Shown here in pieces: positions 38,134 to 42,188 of a stretch of 64,000 bases of DNA (position 1 is the first letter of the stretch; the number at the start of each line of letters is the position of its first letter). Source of the stretch: Xanthobacter sp. NM-59 (GTDB lineage Bacteria; Pseudomonadota; Alphaproteobacteria; Rhizobiales; Xanthobacteraceae). The stretch is from assembly GCF_021401125.1 (NCBI RefSeq), contig NZ_JACBFQ010000015.1:1-64000 (forward strand), given 5' to 3'. The translations under genes were made by a program, and so were the position numbers. The notes beneath the pieces were generated by a model that made no database searches, was not told the DNA's origin, and saw nothing but the letters and a program-made list of their open reading frames with translations.

Positions 38134-38844
38134 TCAGCGGAAAAGGCTGTCGATGTCGTCCTGGGAGACGACGTTCTGATCGTGCGACAGCGCCGGGCCA
38201 TTCAGCAGCGCAGTATCACCCTCGCGCTGCTTTTCCATCTCCTTGGCGCGTTCCACGAGTTCGCTGCCGCCCCAAATCTCGGTCATGCGGCTCACGCGCT
38301 CTTCAATGAAGACGAGCAGCTTCACCACTTTGCGGATGCGCTGGCCCGTAATGTCCTGGAAATTGCAGGCCTCAAACAGCTTCACCACTTCGTTCTGAAT
38401 GGCGTGCGCCAGTTCCAGGTCGCCGTCCGAAAGGCGGCTGACCAGCTTCTGACTCAAGTTGTCGATGGCTTCAGCTGAGGACAGGATGGTCTCGGTGGCG
38501 CCTTCGGTGTCGCTGACGACCGCTTCGAGCTCGCTAGTGGCCGTGTGCAGGCGCTCGCCCCGCGAGCCCTCCGTGTGAATGGTCGCAATCTCGTGACGTG
38601 TATTGCGGATGGCATCCTGGATGGTCTCGATGCCGGACCAAAGAACGCTGCGATCACGCTCACGCGCGAGGGTCGGATCGCGCTCTTGGAACTTGCGGAT
38701 TTCTTCGCGGACTTCAGCAAGCTGTCCGAGAATGCTGTTGATCTGGCTATCGAACGATGTCAGGGCTGTCATCCCCTCGGCGTCGCTCACTGCATTGCCC
38801 ATGGCCGTCTCGATGCGGAACGGACGACGACGCGCACCCGACAT
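38134..38844 (-). CDS. cheZ: CheY phosphatase CheZ
   Basis: CheZ dephosphorylates CheY-P. The 236-aa product is mostly a long helical hairpin, with the signature EACNFQDITGQRIRKVV in the second helix, which carries the catalytic Gln. It ends with a short linker and SQDDIDSLFR, the CheY-binding C-terminal peptide. The gene is convergent with cheR and divergent from the second cheY, 183 bp away, so the two may share a promoter region. Many Rhizobiales use a phosphate-sink CheY and lack cheZ; its presence here matches my recollection of Azorhizobium. Confidence 0.94.
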   Translation of the reverse strand: MSGARRRPFRIETAMGNAVSDAEGMTALTSFDSQINSILGQLAEVREEIRKFQERDPTLARERDRSVLWSGIETIQDAIRNTRHEIATIHTEGSRGERLHTATSELEAVVSDTEGATETILSSAEAIDNLSQKLVSRLSDGDLELAHAIQNEVVKLFEACNFQDITGQRIRKVVKLLVFIEERVSRMTEIWGGSELVERAKEMEKQREGDTALLNGPALSHDQNVVSQDDIDSLFR

Positions 38845-39027
38845 GCAACTCTCCTGGAACGCTCGGAAATCACCGTTCCACCTCTATACGGCGGAAAAAC
38901 GTCCCCCGAAAGCCCCTGGCTGTCGCGTCCGCAAGCTTCATGCAAGCTCCTGATTGCACAAGGGCTTGTGGTTTGGTGGCATGGTTGCCGCTGGAGAAGA
39001 CTTGTTCGCCTGTTTGCGGAGTGTGAG

Positions 39028-39411
39028 ATGGCGATTGATCTTTCGATGCCGGTCCTCGTGGTGGACGACTACAAGACGATGGTCCGCATCATCCGCAATC
39101 TCCTGAAGCAGATCGGCTTCGATGACGTGGATGAGGCTGCTGATGGAACTGAGGCCCTCGCGAAGTTGAAAGAGCGCAAGTACGGTCTCGTGATCTCCGA
39201 TTGGAATATGGAGCCGATGACTGGCTATGAGCTGCTGAAGCAGGTTCGCGGCGATGACGCTCTGAGCGACATTCCCTTCATCATGATTACTGCTGAGGCG
39301 AAGTCGGAAAACGTCATCGCTGCGAAGAAAGCAGGCGTGAACAACTATATCGTCAAGCCGTTCAATGCGCAGACCCTTAAGGGTAAGATCGACGCTGTTT
39401 TCGAGAGCTGA
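39028..39411 (+). CDS. cheY: Response regulator CheY (second copy, paired with cheZ)
   Basis: This 127-aa single-domain receiver starts MAIDLSMPVLVVDDYKTM, with GGAG upstream. Phospho-site Asp58 (VISDWNMEPM), Thr88 (IMITAEAKSENV) and Lys110 (YIVKPFNAQ) are all present. The sequence from ISDWNMEPMTG onward is much closer to canonical enteric CheY than is the copy in the cheA operon. Divergent pairing with cheZ suggests that this is the motor-binding CheY acted on by that phosphatase. Confidence 0.95.
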   Translation: MAIDLSMPVLVVDDYKTMVRIIRNLLKQIGFDDVDEAADGTEALAKLKERKYGLVISDWNMEPMTGYELLKQVRGDDALSDIPFIMITAEAKSENVIAAKKAGVNNYIVKPFNAQTLKGKIDAVFES

Positions 39412-39733
39412 TCCGCCTGGCGCGGGGAGGCGGGCGCGCAAGATTCGGTGCGTGGTTCATGTCGCGTCGATGGTGTCCCTCACCGTCGCTCAGGCTGCGT
39501 TTTCTTCGCGGCCGAGCGTCCCGCTCATCGGCGGGTTCTCCGAACGACATCCGGGCGCTGAAGGTGTGATGTAACCTTTCGGCGTGTTGTCCCTTGCGCG
39601 ACTGAGGTGGGTACCCGGATGCTGGTCAGTGTCGCGGGTGGGGCGGTCCGGTGGCGTCGGCAACTGCTCCGAATCGGAGCCTTCGACGCGGTGCCGAAAT
39701 CGCTATTCTGGATTTAGATGGCGCCTCATCCCT

Positions 39734-39747
39734 TTGATTTTGATCAA
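39734..39747. promoter_or_regulatory. FNR/FixK-type anaerobox upstream of ftcR
   Basis: TTGATTTTGATCAA matches the palindromic consensus TTGAT-N4-ATCAA at all ten fixed positions. The site is centred about 230 bases before the ftcR start codon. FNR/FixK activators usually bind about 41 bases upstream of a transcription start, which would put that start near 39782. Confidence 0.6.
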
Positions 39748-39822
39748 AAATGATTCGTTTGAAGAGGTGAGTTCGGTCCATTTTCGCGGGCGTTTTGTGC
39801 AATGCACTCCAGTGTGGAATTA

Positions 39823-39837
39823 TTAATATTGAGTTAA
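39823..39837. promoter_or_regulatory. CtrA-type binding motif upstream of ftcR
   Basis: TTAA-TATTGAG-TTAA is an exact TTAA-N7-TTAA match, the full CtrA consensus of alphaproteobacteria. It lies 133 bases before the ftcR start codon. I recall CtrA control of ftcR being reported in Brucella, which fits. Confidence 0.65.
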
Positions 39838-39970
39838 CGTATTTGCGCGGATTGCCGCTTGGGGAATCGCGAATATGCTACCTTCCTATGGTTGGTGCCT
39901 CTGGGGGAACCGGCTCCGGCATTTTTACCGGGTCGGGCAGGGCGCACCCACCTTGAGTATGGAGGGTGGG

Positions 39971-40642
39971 ATGTATGTGGTCGTGGACGAGCGGACGTCC
40001 GTTATCGAAAGCTATGTTGGGGCTTTTTCCCGCGAAGGGGTCGCTTCGCAGGGATTTACGCATAGTGAGTTCCGCGATTGGATTCTGACGACGTGCGAAG
40101 AGGATCTTGGTGCGGTCGAGAGTTTCCTGGTGGGGGACGTGGACGGGCGCACCGGATATCCAGACCTCATTCGAGGCTATTCGAGCGCTCCGATTATTGC
40201 GCTTGAAGATGTTAAATCCTTAACGCACACGCTTGAGTTGTTCACTGCGGGAATCGACGATGTCGTTCGTAAGCCCGTCCATGTGAAGGAGATCATGGCG
40301 CGCGCGGATGCTGTGTGGCGTCGTGTTCGCGCGACTGAGCCTCAGGTTCTAGAGTGTGAGCGCCTGAAGGTGTTCTTCGATGGTCGCGATCCCGAGATTG
40401 ACGGGCAGGCGTTGGCTTTGCCGCGACGGGAGCGCCACATCCTTGAGTACCTGGTGAAGAACAGCAAGCGTCGCGTTACCAAGACGCAGATCTTCAATAC
40501 GATCTACGGTATCTTCAACGACGATGTCGATGAGAGCGTGATTGAAGGCCACATGAGCAAGCTGCGCAAGAAGCTCCGCTTGAAGCTTGGTTACGACGTC
40601 ATCGACGCTAAGCGTTATCTCGGCTATCAGTTCGTCGGCTGA
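39971..40642 (+). CDS. ftcR: Flagellar transcriptional regulator FtcR
   Basis: FtcR (Rem in Sinorhizobium) is a two-component-type master activator of flagellar genes. I start at MYVVVDERTSVIESYVGAF, with GGAGGG just upstream; the frame is open 32 codons earlier. The 223-aa product has an atypical receiver (about 1-115) lacking the usual acidic pair and a clear phospho-Asp, although AGIDDVVRKPVHVKE keeps the Lys-Pro end. The OmpR-type winged-helix domain (about 130-223) has ERHILEYLVKNSKRRVTKTQ and ESVIEGHMSKLRKKL. Missing receiver residues suggest control by expression level rather than phosphorylation. The upstream region carries CtrA and FNR/FixK motifs. Confidence 0.92.
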   Translation: MYVVVDERTSVIESYVGAFSREGVASQGFTHSEFRDWILTTCEEDLGAVESFLVGDVDGRTGYPDLIRGYSSAPIIALEDVKSLTHTLELFTAGIDDVVRKPVHVKEIMARADAVWRRVRATEPQVLECERLKVFFDGRDPEIDGQALALPRRERHILEYLVKNSKRRVTKTQIFNTIYGIFNDDVDESVIEGHMSKLRKKLRLKLGYDVIDAKRYLGYQFVG

Positions 40643-40660
40643 ACTGGGTGTGTCGAGGGT

Positions 40661-40694
40661 CTGTACAGCCGAGAGAGATTCCTCGGCTGTACAG
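40661..40694 (+). terminator. Hairpin after ftcR
   Basis: A 13-bp perfect stem with an AGAGATTC loop begins 18 bases after the ftcR stop codon. The stem is strong, but no T-rich tail follows, so Rho-independent termination is uncertain. A dyad protein-binding site is an alternative. Confidence 0.5.
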
Positions 40695-40792
40695 GCGGCG
40701 CGATGACGTGTGGCTTGAGGCGCGTTATCTGTGCTGCTCGTGCATTAAAGCATGGTGTCCTGCGAAAAGGGGCATGAGCCGCTCGCGGTAGG

Positions 40793-40807
40793 CATTGAAC
40801 GGGCGCG
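40793..40807 (+). repeat. 15-base direct repeat, copy 1
   Basis: CATTGAACGGGCGCG occurs here and again at 41272-41286 in the same orientation. The second copy ends three bases before the regulator start codon chosen at 41289. Confidence 0.6.
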
Positions 40808-41271
40808 GTTAGCCGGGGCTCGCTGGCGACTGTTAAGCCATGGCCGATTTGTTCGCTCCCATTAGGTGTGGCGGTAGCACCCTTGACGCGCGTGTTGTGG
40901 GCGGCTGAGGCAAGTTCTCCCATTTTCTCCTGAACAGCGTCTGCAGGCTAGCGCAGTGGGCCGAGAAGGATCCGGCGCCAGTGGGCTCATGCGTGTTGCG
41001 GTGTAACGTGTCAAAATCGGCGCTGCGTGCCGTTTGCTGCCTCACTGCGGCGGTGGGCATTCTGAGTGCCTGTCGCGTCAAGGTGTTTCCGTTGGTCATC
41101 CGTGGTGTGGAGGGCAGTGCGGATTGCCGGCTTTCGGCGTACTCGCGCCGCGTGCGGCTCTTGCCGGCCGGCGGCGCTTTCTCGCTACATTTTTGCCGCA
41201 TTTGTCAAGATTGGGTGACACCGGAGGGCCAAGGCGGTTGCGAAGTGCGGCAGTAACATGGCAGACCTAGA

Positions 41272-41286
41272 CATTGAACGGGCGCG
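41272..41286 (+). repeat. 15-base direct repeat, copy 2
   Basis: This is the second exact copy of CATTGAACGGGCGCG, 479 bases after the first. It lies just upstream of the MarR-type response regulator start. Confidence 0.6.
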
Positions 41287-41288
41287 CG

Positions 41289-42188
41289 ATGTCGATCTCC
41301 ACCAAGGGCCTTCCCTCGCATTCGGCTGGGCTGCAGCAGCAGTCCCGTGCTGAAGGAATGAGCGTCTGCGATCCCGTGTCCGGTGCTCAGAGCCGCGGGG
41401 GCAAGGGAATGGGCAGTCAGGTACAGGGGGTCCCTCGTGTTTTGCTGGTGGACGATGATGCCCACCTCCTGGCCGAGCTCCATGAAGGTTTGCAGGCCCT
41501 TGATATCCCTACCTTAACGGCGCGATCGGCGATCGAGGCATTAGATCAGGTGAGGCGGAACGAGGGCTTGCAGGTCCTTGTCACGGATCTGCAGTTGCCG
41601 CGTATCGATGGAGCCGAGCTGCTGCAGAAATTGGCGCTGCGCCGTCGGCGGCGCCCGCTCGCGGCAATCGTCATGACCGAACACGCCTCGCTGGACCGCG
41701 CGGTCCGTGCGCTCCGCCTCCATGCGGTGGATTTTCTCCAGAAGCCGGTGACGGTGGAAGAGGTCGCGAATGCGATTACCCGCGCATTCTCGCTAGTGCG
41801 GGAGGCTGAGCCCGTCGCGGTGGAGGGGCCGGGGACCATCGGGCGATCGGAGTATCTGCGAGCGCTGGTGGCCGCGCGGGCGGATCGCGCGGCAATTTTC
41901 GACGCGAATCTTTTTTCGGATCCCGCCTGGGAGATGATGCTGGACCTGGCGGTTGCGGAAGCGTGCGATCGGCCCATCTCGGTGACAAGTCTGTGCATCG
42001 CATCCGGCGCGCCCACCACGACCGCCTTGCGGAGGATTGATGAGCTTCGGCAAGCCGGGCTGCTCGACAAGATGCCGGATGCCCGGGACAAGCGCCGCAT
42101 TGTGGTACGGCTCACGCCCCTGGGGCGCGAGCGCATGGAGGCCTTCGTGGAGCGGCAGGCCGAGCGCATCGGTCTCAAGCTGGACTGA
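41289..42188 (+). CDS. Response regulator with MarR-like winged-helix output
   Basis: This product (299 aa from the chosen ATG) has a receiver with acidic residues 55-57 (LLVDDDAHLL), phospho-site Asp100 (LVTDLQLPR), Thr130 (AIVMTEHA) and Lys152 (LQKPVT). A C-terminal domain (about 215-299) reads SVTSLCIASGAPTTTALRRI, then LLDKMPDARDKRRIVVRLTP and LGRERMEAF. That tail is the MarR wing and following helix. The combination is uncommon. The start is uncertain: a TTG at 41274 and ATGs at 41358 and 41409 are in frame, the last with AAGGGA close by. No kinase gene is adjacent. It stands alone between ftcR and the DUF1217 gene. Confidence 0.85.
   Translation: MSISTKGLPSHSAGLQQQSRAEGMSVCDPVSGAQSRGGKGMGSQVQGVPRVLLVDDDAHLLAELHEGLQALDIPTLTARSAIEALDQVRRNEGLQVLVTDLQLPRIDGAELLQKLALRRRRRPLAAIVMTEHASLDRAVRALRLHAVDFLQKPVTVEEVANAITRAFSLVREAEPVAVEGPGTIGRSEYLRALVAARADRAAIFDANLFSDPAWEMMLDLAVAEACDRPISVTSLCIASGAPTTTALRRIDELRQAGLLDKMPDARDKRRIVVRLTPLGRERMEAFVERQAERIGLKLD

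Follow-up and report, generated by a model that had tools for sequence, protein, structure and literature searches.

The flagellar regulator gene ftcR of Xanthobacter sp. NM-59 is preceded by a 14-bp palindrome that we regard, with a probability of about 0.6, as a genuine FixK site that would place ftcR under a FixLJ-FixK cascade and was gained in the lineage of Xanthobacter agilis. The FixK/FNR-type box, TTGATTTTGATCAA, occupies positions 39734-39747 of the window (the whole 64,000-nucleotide stretch of DNA that was analysed). All ten fixed bases of TTGAT-N4-ATCAA were matched, as the first-pass annotation had stated, and this was the sole perfect match in the window. Its placement in non-coding DNA was likewise upheld: the box lies within a 559-bp intergenic stretch between the end of a cheY-like receiver gene (39028-39411, plus strand; an open reading frame with a family match), which runs upstream of ftcR in the same direction, and the likely ATG of ftcR at 39971. 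The added remark that the box is on the same strand side as ftcR carries no information, since the box is palindromic in its fixed bases and has no strand of its own.

The ftcR/rem homologue (39971-40642, plus strand), recognised by a family match and by similarity to S. meliloti, encodes 223 amino acids with an OmpR-type DNA-binding domain; no receiver domain was recognised in the product by Pfam. The open reading frame listing starts the gene at 39875, but the ATG at 39971 was preferred. Judged by eye, this ATG is most likely the start; it stands behind a Shine-Dalgarno-like GGAGGG read in the sequence (39961-39966, plus strand) and agrees with the starts of the homologues. Over 98% of its length, the product shared 54.8% identity with a response regulator of S. 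meliloti (CP090106) encoded just before flgE and near motB- and fliK-named genes. The record names that gene "response regulator"; we take it to be rem, partly from its position. This similarity and the flagellar placement in S. meliloti led us to accept the name FtcR/Rem, and the gene behind the box had thus been correctly named: it is a Rem/FtcR homologue by full-length similarity and by its placement in a flagellar locus. The homologue probably switches on flagella. Ten further open reading frames of the window were scanned, of which nine had family matches (FliP, FlgH, FlgI, a rod/hook protein, a T3SS-type ATPase, FlgK, FHIPEP, CheA-like and CheB-like) and one matched nothing. The nearest named match to ftcR was in X. 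agilis LMG 16336 (94%; L013), and among 14 genomes of the genus five have ftcR, with E no higher than 1e-40. Directly 3' of ftcR there is a perfect 13-bp inverted repeat (40661-40694) without a T run, seen by eye and not reported by the terminator scan. The next large plus-strand open reading frame after ftcR (41274-42188) encodes a receiver domain and has a weak HTH_27 winged-helix match under the cut-off.

Perfect matches to the motif are rare by chance. The earlier figure of 0.06 matches expected in 64 kb with equal base use was correct, and the lower expectation claimed for GC-rich DNA was borne out: base composition predicts 0.0059 perfect sites per 64 kb, the figure for the 559-bp intergenic stretch being 0.00015. 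Near-matches are somewhat in excess in any case: with up to two mismatches allowed, the window contained 21 matches, whereas shuffled sequences gave 10.7 on average and 19 at most. Composition was controlled by varying the spacer and counting TTGAT-N(0-24)-ATCAA genome-wide. The host genome contained 59 matches over N0-N24, with 12 perfect N4 sites and 47 matches for the 24 other spacings (mean 1.96 each), which is an excess of about 6-fold at N4 (Poisson P about 1e-6). The X. agilis genome contained 10 N4 sites among 52 matches, and its other spacings averaged 1.75 (Poisson P about 1.5e-5). The host excess suggests that the majority of the 12 perfect sites, though not all, are likely functional. 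By open reading frame reading, three of the 12 (L003, L006, and L007) fall inside likely genes, so some sites are chance matches.

Conservation of these sites was also concentrated at the N4 spacing. Six of the 12 host N4 sites (L001, L004, L005, L008, L010, and L011), including those at the ftcR, nifH and OmpW genes, had a perfect counterpart at the orthologous position of X. agilis, compared with two of 20 other-spacing matches (the 20 listed of 47; Fisher P 0.018). The P-value was 0.037 when the ftcR site, which had been picked beforehand, was left out. No perfect X. agilis counterpart was found for the other six, including the site (L002) near an aminotransferase-family gene resembling hemA, whose counterpart has one mismatch. 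Perfect sites were located near nifH (L005, L084), an OmpW gene (L010) and a P-type ATPase gene (L012). The gene ccoN is present and has a one-mismatch box upstream, TTGACATGTATCAA in the host and TTGACCTGTATCAA in X. agilis.

Several of these boxes have neighbours that deserve mention in their own right. The perfect nifH intergenic box, TTGATGTACATCAA, is identical in both species (L005, L084), and its other neighbour is a divergent single-domain receiver gene. A one-mismatch box beside fixJ, TTGAGTTAGATCAA, is common to both genomes (L091:1459, L092:2139); the receiver-like open reading frame downstream of it points away from the box. Another perfect box (L009, G000:C30:154395) lies roughly 400 bp 5' of a gene for a protoglobin-GGDEF (DosC-like) protein, and a perfect counterpart of it was not found in X. 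agilis. By its position, this box is a possible second oxygen link, to the choice between a motile and a sessile life.

The box at ftcR stands out against a strongly diverged surrounding. Its X. agilis counterpart, TTGATTTGAATCAA, starts at -239 relative to ftcR, compared with -237 in the window, and agrees in 12 of 14 bases and in all ten arm bases; both differences are within the spacer. Ungapped identity of the flanks was 26/75 upstream of the site and 31/75 between the site and a CtrA-type box further downstream, where part of the agreement adjoins the CtrA box. When the window was compared with X. agilis allowing a 12-nt offset, the box was the single best-kept of the 384 14-mers in 39412-39808. 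The next best, apart from those overlapping the box, were 39771-39784 (11/14, offset -1) and 39424-39437 (11/14, offset -9). These conservation figures are those of an ungapped and offset-limited comparison. In agreement with the divergence of the flanks, blastn gave two aligned blocks between the window and X. agilis, one ending where cheY ends and the other running from 39809 to the ftcR end, and left the stretch between them unaligned. A gapped global alignment of the intergenic stretch was rejected, as it opened gaps within the motif and its identity of 78% over aligned columns was too favourable. The box is shared by two genomes only, both of the same genus, so its conservation rests on one pair.

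A candidate reader of the box is encoded in the host genome. There were 12 Crp-type helix-turn-helix (HTH) matches, three of them strong, at 52.8-71.5 bits, and the remaining nine weak, at 21.7-26.9 bits. Five of the 12 were marked over the cut-off, two of the weak ones being so marked together with their neighbours. For one of the strong matches, the alignment to the NCBIfam FixK model covered 196 of 231 residues and scored 237.9 bits, below the model's cut-off of 300 bits, which is set for the Caulobacter group. The recognition helix of this FixK-like protein reads IETVSR (E-x-x-S-R), and an E-T-V-S-R helix is presumably the signature for reading TTGAT. The other two strong proteins have RQTVNR and RQWVTM, without E-x-x-S-R, and the motif was also absent from the nine weak matches, which by eye resemble other HTH families. 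FixJ was detected over its cut-off (306.2 vs 255) at G000:C35:234125-234736, and the fixK-like gene starts at 236497. The open reading frame between them encodes a PAS histidine kinase, which by its sequence and position would be FixL, as expected. The first-pass annotation had proposed FNR/FixK-type control. A FixK-like protein, FixJ and a PAS kinase were all found, but an FNR with sensing cysteines was not seen among the 12 Crp-type matches, so the FixLJ-FixK route is favoured over an oxygen-sensing FNR.

The promoter region contains a second regulatory motif that was absent from the earlier annotation. A perfect CtrA-type box, TTAATATTGAGTTAA (TTAA-N7-TTAA; 39823-39837, plus strand), lies 75 bp downstream of the FixK-type box, and the distance between the two boxes is 89 bp, start to start, in the window and X. 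agilis alike. The host genome carries a CtrA gene. Perfect CtrA boxes were strongly enriched upstream of FtcR/Rem homologues: 17 of 109 regions contained 19 such boxes, whereas shuffles gave 1.1 (largest 4), an enrichment that counts related genomes repeatedly. The S. meliloti rem locus (L223) has a perfect CtrA box at -107 and no FixK-type box within two mismatches in 500 bp.

Core promoter elements were less clear. The next-ranked conserved block, GTTCGGTCCATTTT (39771-39784, plus strand), is kept at 11 of 14 bases when X. agilis is shifted by 1 nt, a score that the 14-mer at 39424 also reaches. Its position is that of the -10 element and start of a would-be class II FixK promoter, which is suggestive only; a good -10 hexamer was not found at class II distance from the box. 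A sigma-70 consensus scan of 39300-40750 with a threshold of 9/12 found no promoter. A possible core promoter, TTGCCG-N16-TATGCT (39852-39879, plus strand), lies in the best-conserved block; it has 8 of 12 consensus bases, under the threshold, and is thus weak. The FixK-type box would stand at about -145 of the start from this element, which is outside the usual range of such boxes.

The box is not a general feature of ftcR. Three congeners with ftcR (G001, G003, and G009; 81-82%) had no site within two mismatches in the 600 bp upstream, where by eye a cheR-like coding sequence directly precedes the gene. No perfect box occurred in the upstream regions of 109 other ftcR homologues. One-mismatch boxes occurred in four of the 109 regions against a shuffle mean of 1.55 (largest 4; 20 shuffles), and the raw count of matches with up to two mismatches was 42. 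The 109 regions (108 distinct sequences) comprised 29 that included the three congeners, with five duplicates, the window and X. agilis left out, and 80 of 127 further matches, which come from 122 genomes, five of them with two. Each region was 500 bp long (300 bp for L015), and the matches in L154 and L216 begin at residue 2. The laxer pattern TTGA-N6-TCAA, sought in 600 bp upstream of 36 loci, was found only in the window and X. agilis (twice), and no box within two mismatches was found in 600 bp at the Bradyrhizobiaceae (L033) and Tardiphaga (L034) loci. Two of the four one-mismatch boxes among the 109 regions, TAGATATAGATCAA (L046) and TAGATGTAGATCAA (L191), lie at -135 near CtrA boxes and belong to one family. 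Conservation in close relatives, whose absence the first-pass annotation would have held against its reading, was therefore partial: the site is kept in X. agilis, absent in the three congeners and without a perfect copy in the 109 regions. The enrichment of CtrA boxes and the absence of a perfect FixK-type box from these regions suggest that the CtrA box is common to this type of promoter and that the FixK-type box is a local addition.

In the mechanism that we propose, FixL would phosphorylate FixJ at low oxygen, FixJ would turn on fixK, and FixK would bind 39734-39747 and alter the transcription of ftcR. In the lineage of X. agilis, an older, CtrA-associated promoter would have acquired the candidate box on its upstream side, and ftcR would then respond both to the cell cycle through CtrA and to microoxia through FixK. 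FixK would either use a start of its own near 39782 with a poor -10 element or act from a distance. Binding, the effect on ftcR and its sign are what we infer from these observations, and so is the order of FixLJ and FixK, which follows the known cascade. The broader proposal, that a flagellar master regulator was rewired by a box at a fixed distance from an ancestral CtrA promoter, with FixLJ-FixK directly deciding on flagella, stands at roughly even odds.

The same box could also serve repression, FixK lowering ftcR transcription at low oxygen so that flagella are no longer made, which we consider possible but rather unlikely. FixK proteins mostly act as activators. The box ends 75 bp before the CtrA box and overlaps no promoter-like element seen, and the block at 39771-39784 sits where a FixK-dependent start would be. 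Nevertheless, the box lies far 5' of the best-conserved promoter-like element and not at a standard activating position. Precedents in print also favour repression: LafR of Bradyrhizobium diazoefficiens, a Rem homologue, is repressed by oxygen limitation (PMC8429497), and lateral flagella are inhibited in microaerobiosis (PMC5996035). Between repression and activation from a separate upstream promoter with a start near 39782, we somewhat favour activation; a second promoter would not be strange, since two rem promoters, activated by VisNR, are described in rhizobia (PMC8429497).

That the box is a chance match or a functionless remnant is improbable. Chance would account for about two of the genome's 12 perfect sites, there is no promoter at the standard distance, and the other homologues examined lack a perfect site; against this, the arms and their spacing were kept amid strongly diverged flanks. 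Least probable is that the box is real but belongs to a different transcript, either a small RNA or an extended cheY-ftcR leader, or is read by another protein of the Crp family: the intergenic stretch spans 559 bp and two more Crp-family proteins have strong HTH matches, but a search of 38800-41300 gave no Rfam match at E up to 1, cheY and ftcR are both on the plus strand, which leaves no divergent gene, and the remaining Crp proteins lack E-x-x-S-R.

If the FixLJ-FixK reading of the box is true, it would connect oxygen sensing directly and simply with the flagellar regulon of a bacterium that carries nitrogenase genes, and oxygen and cell-cycle control would be combined at one gene in nifH-bearing cells. 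It would also be a clean case of promoter rewiring, the site being present in two sister species and absent in three congeners that have ftcR. The first-pass annotation knew of no described direct oxygen control of FtcR/Rem. An oxygen effect on LafR is in print (PMC8429497), which qualifies that statement; the open-licence literature searched, mostly at the level of listings, yielded no FixK box at a Rem/FtcR gene, and neither did the titles of open-licence papers on X. agilis motility. The novelty is therefore modest and consists of the candidate FixK box at a Rem/FtcR-type gene, the oxygen effect on a Rem homologue being already known.

Among the known systems nearest to this one, LafR of B. 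diazoefficiens is likewise a Rem-family regulator, under the influence of oxygen. Unlike at ftcR here, no FixK box is mentioned in the available part of that review, which also names no direct regulator of the effect (PMC8429497), and the ftcR promoter is a place to look for one. In related work, the lafA2 product drops in microoxia and is controlled by RegR (PMC6515984), and lafR is up in a phaR mutant grown microaerobically (PMC10888616). The S. meliloti rem gene encodes a homologous regulator and, as here, has a CtrA motif in its promoter, although ChIP-seq showed no CtrA binding to rem and depletion of CtrA left rem unchanged (PMC4433202). The available part of a review of Brucella flagella names other inputs to ftcR, CtrA not among them (PMC8781033). 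In Dinoroseobacter and Rhodobacter, the influence of Crp/Fnr regulators extends to flagellar genes and to the CtrA system by a route of FnrL/Dnr and a phosphorelay, unlike the FixK route proposed here (PMC7232146). Interaction between the Crp/Fnr and CtrA systems is described for D. shibae; in R. capsulatus, ChIP-seq and prediction suggest FnrL sites near flagellar clusters, but without fnrL the transcripts for those traits showed no large change (PMC7232146). With the FixK boxes of rhizobia, the host shares the motif TTGAT-N4-ATCAA, a fixK-like gene by fixJ and a PAS kinase gene, and a one-mismatch box at ccoN; the rhizobial targets lie in respiration and nitrogen fixation, whereas the candidate target here is a flagellar regulator.
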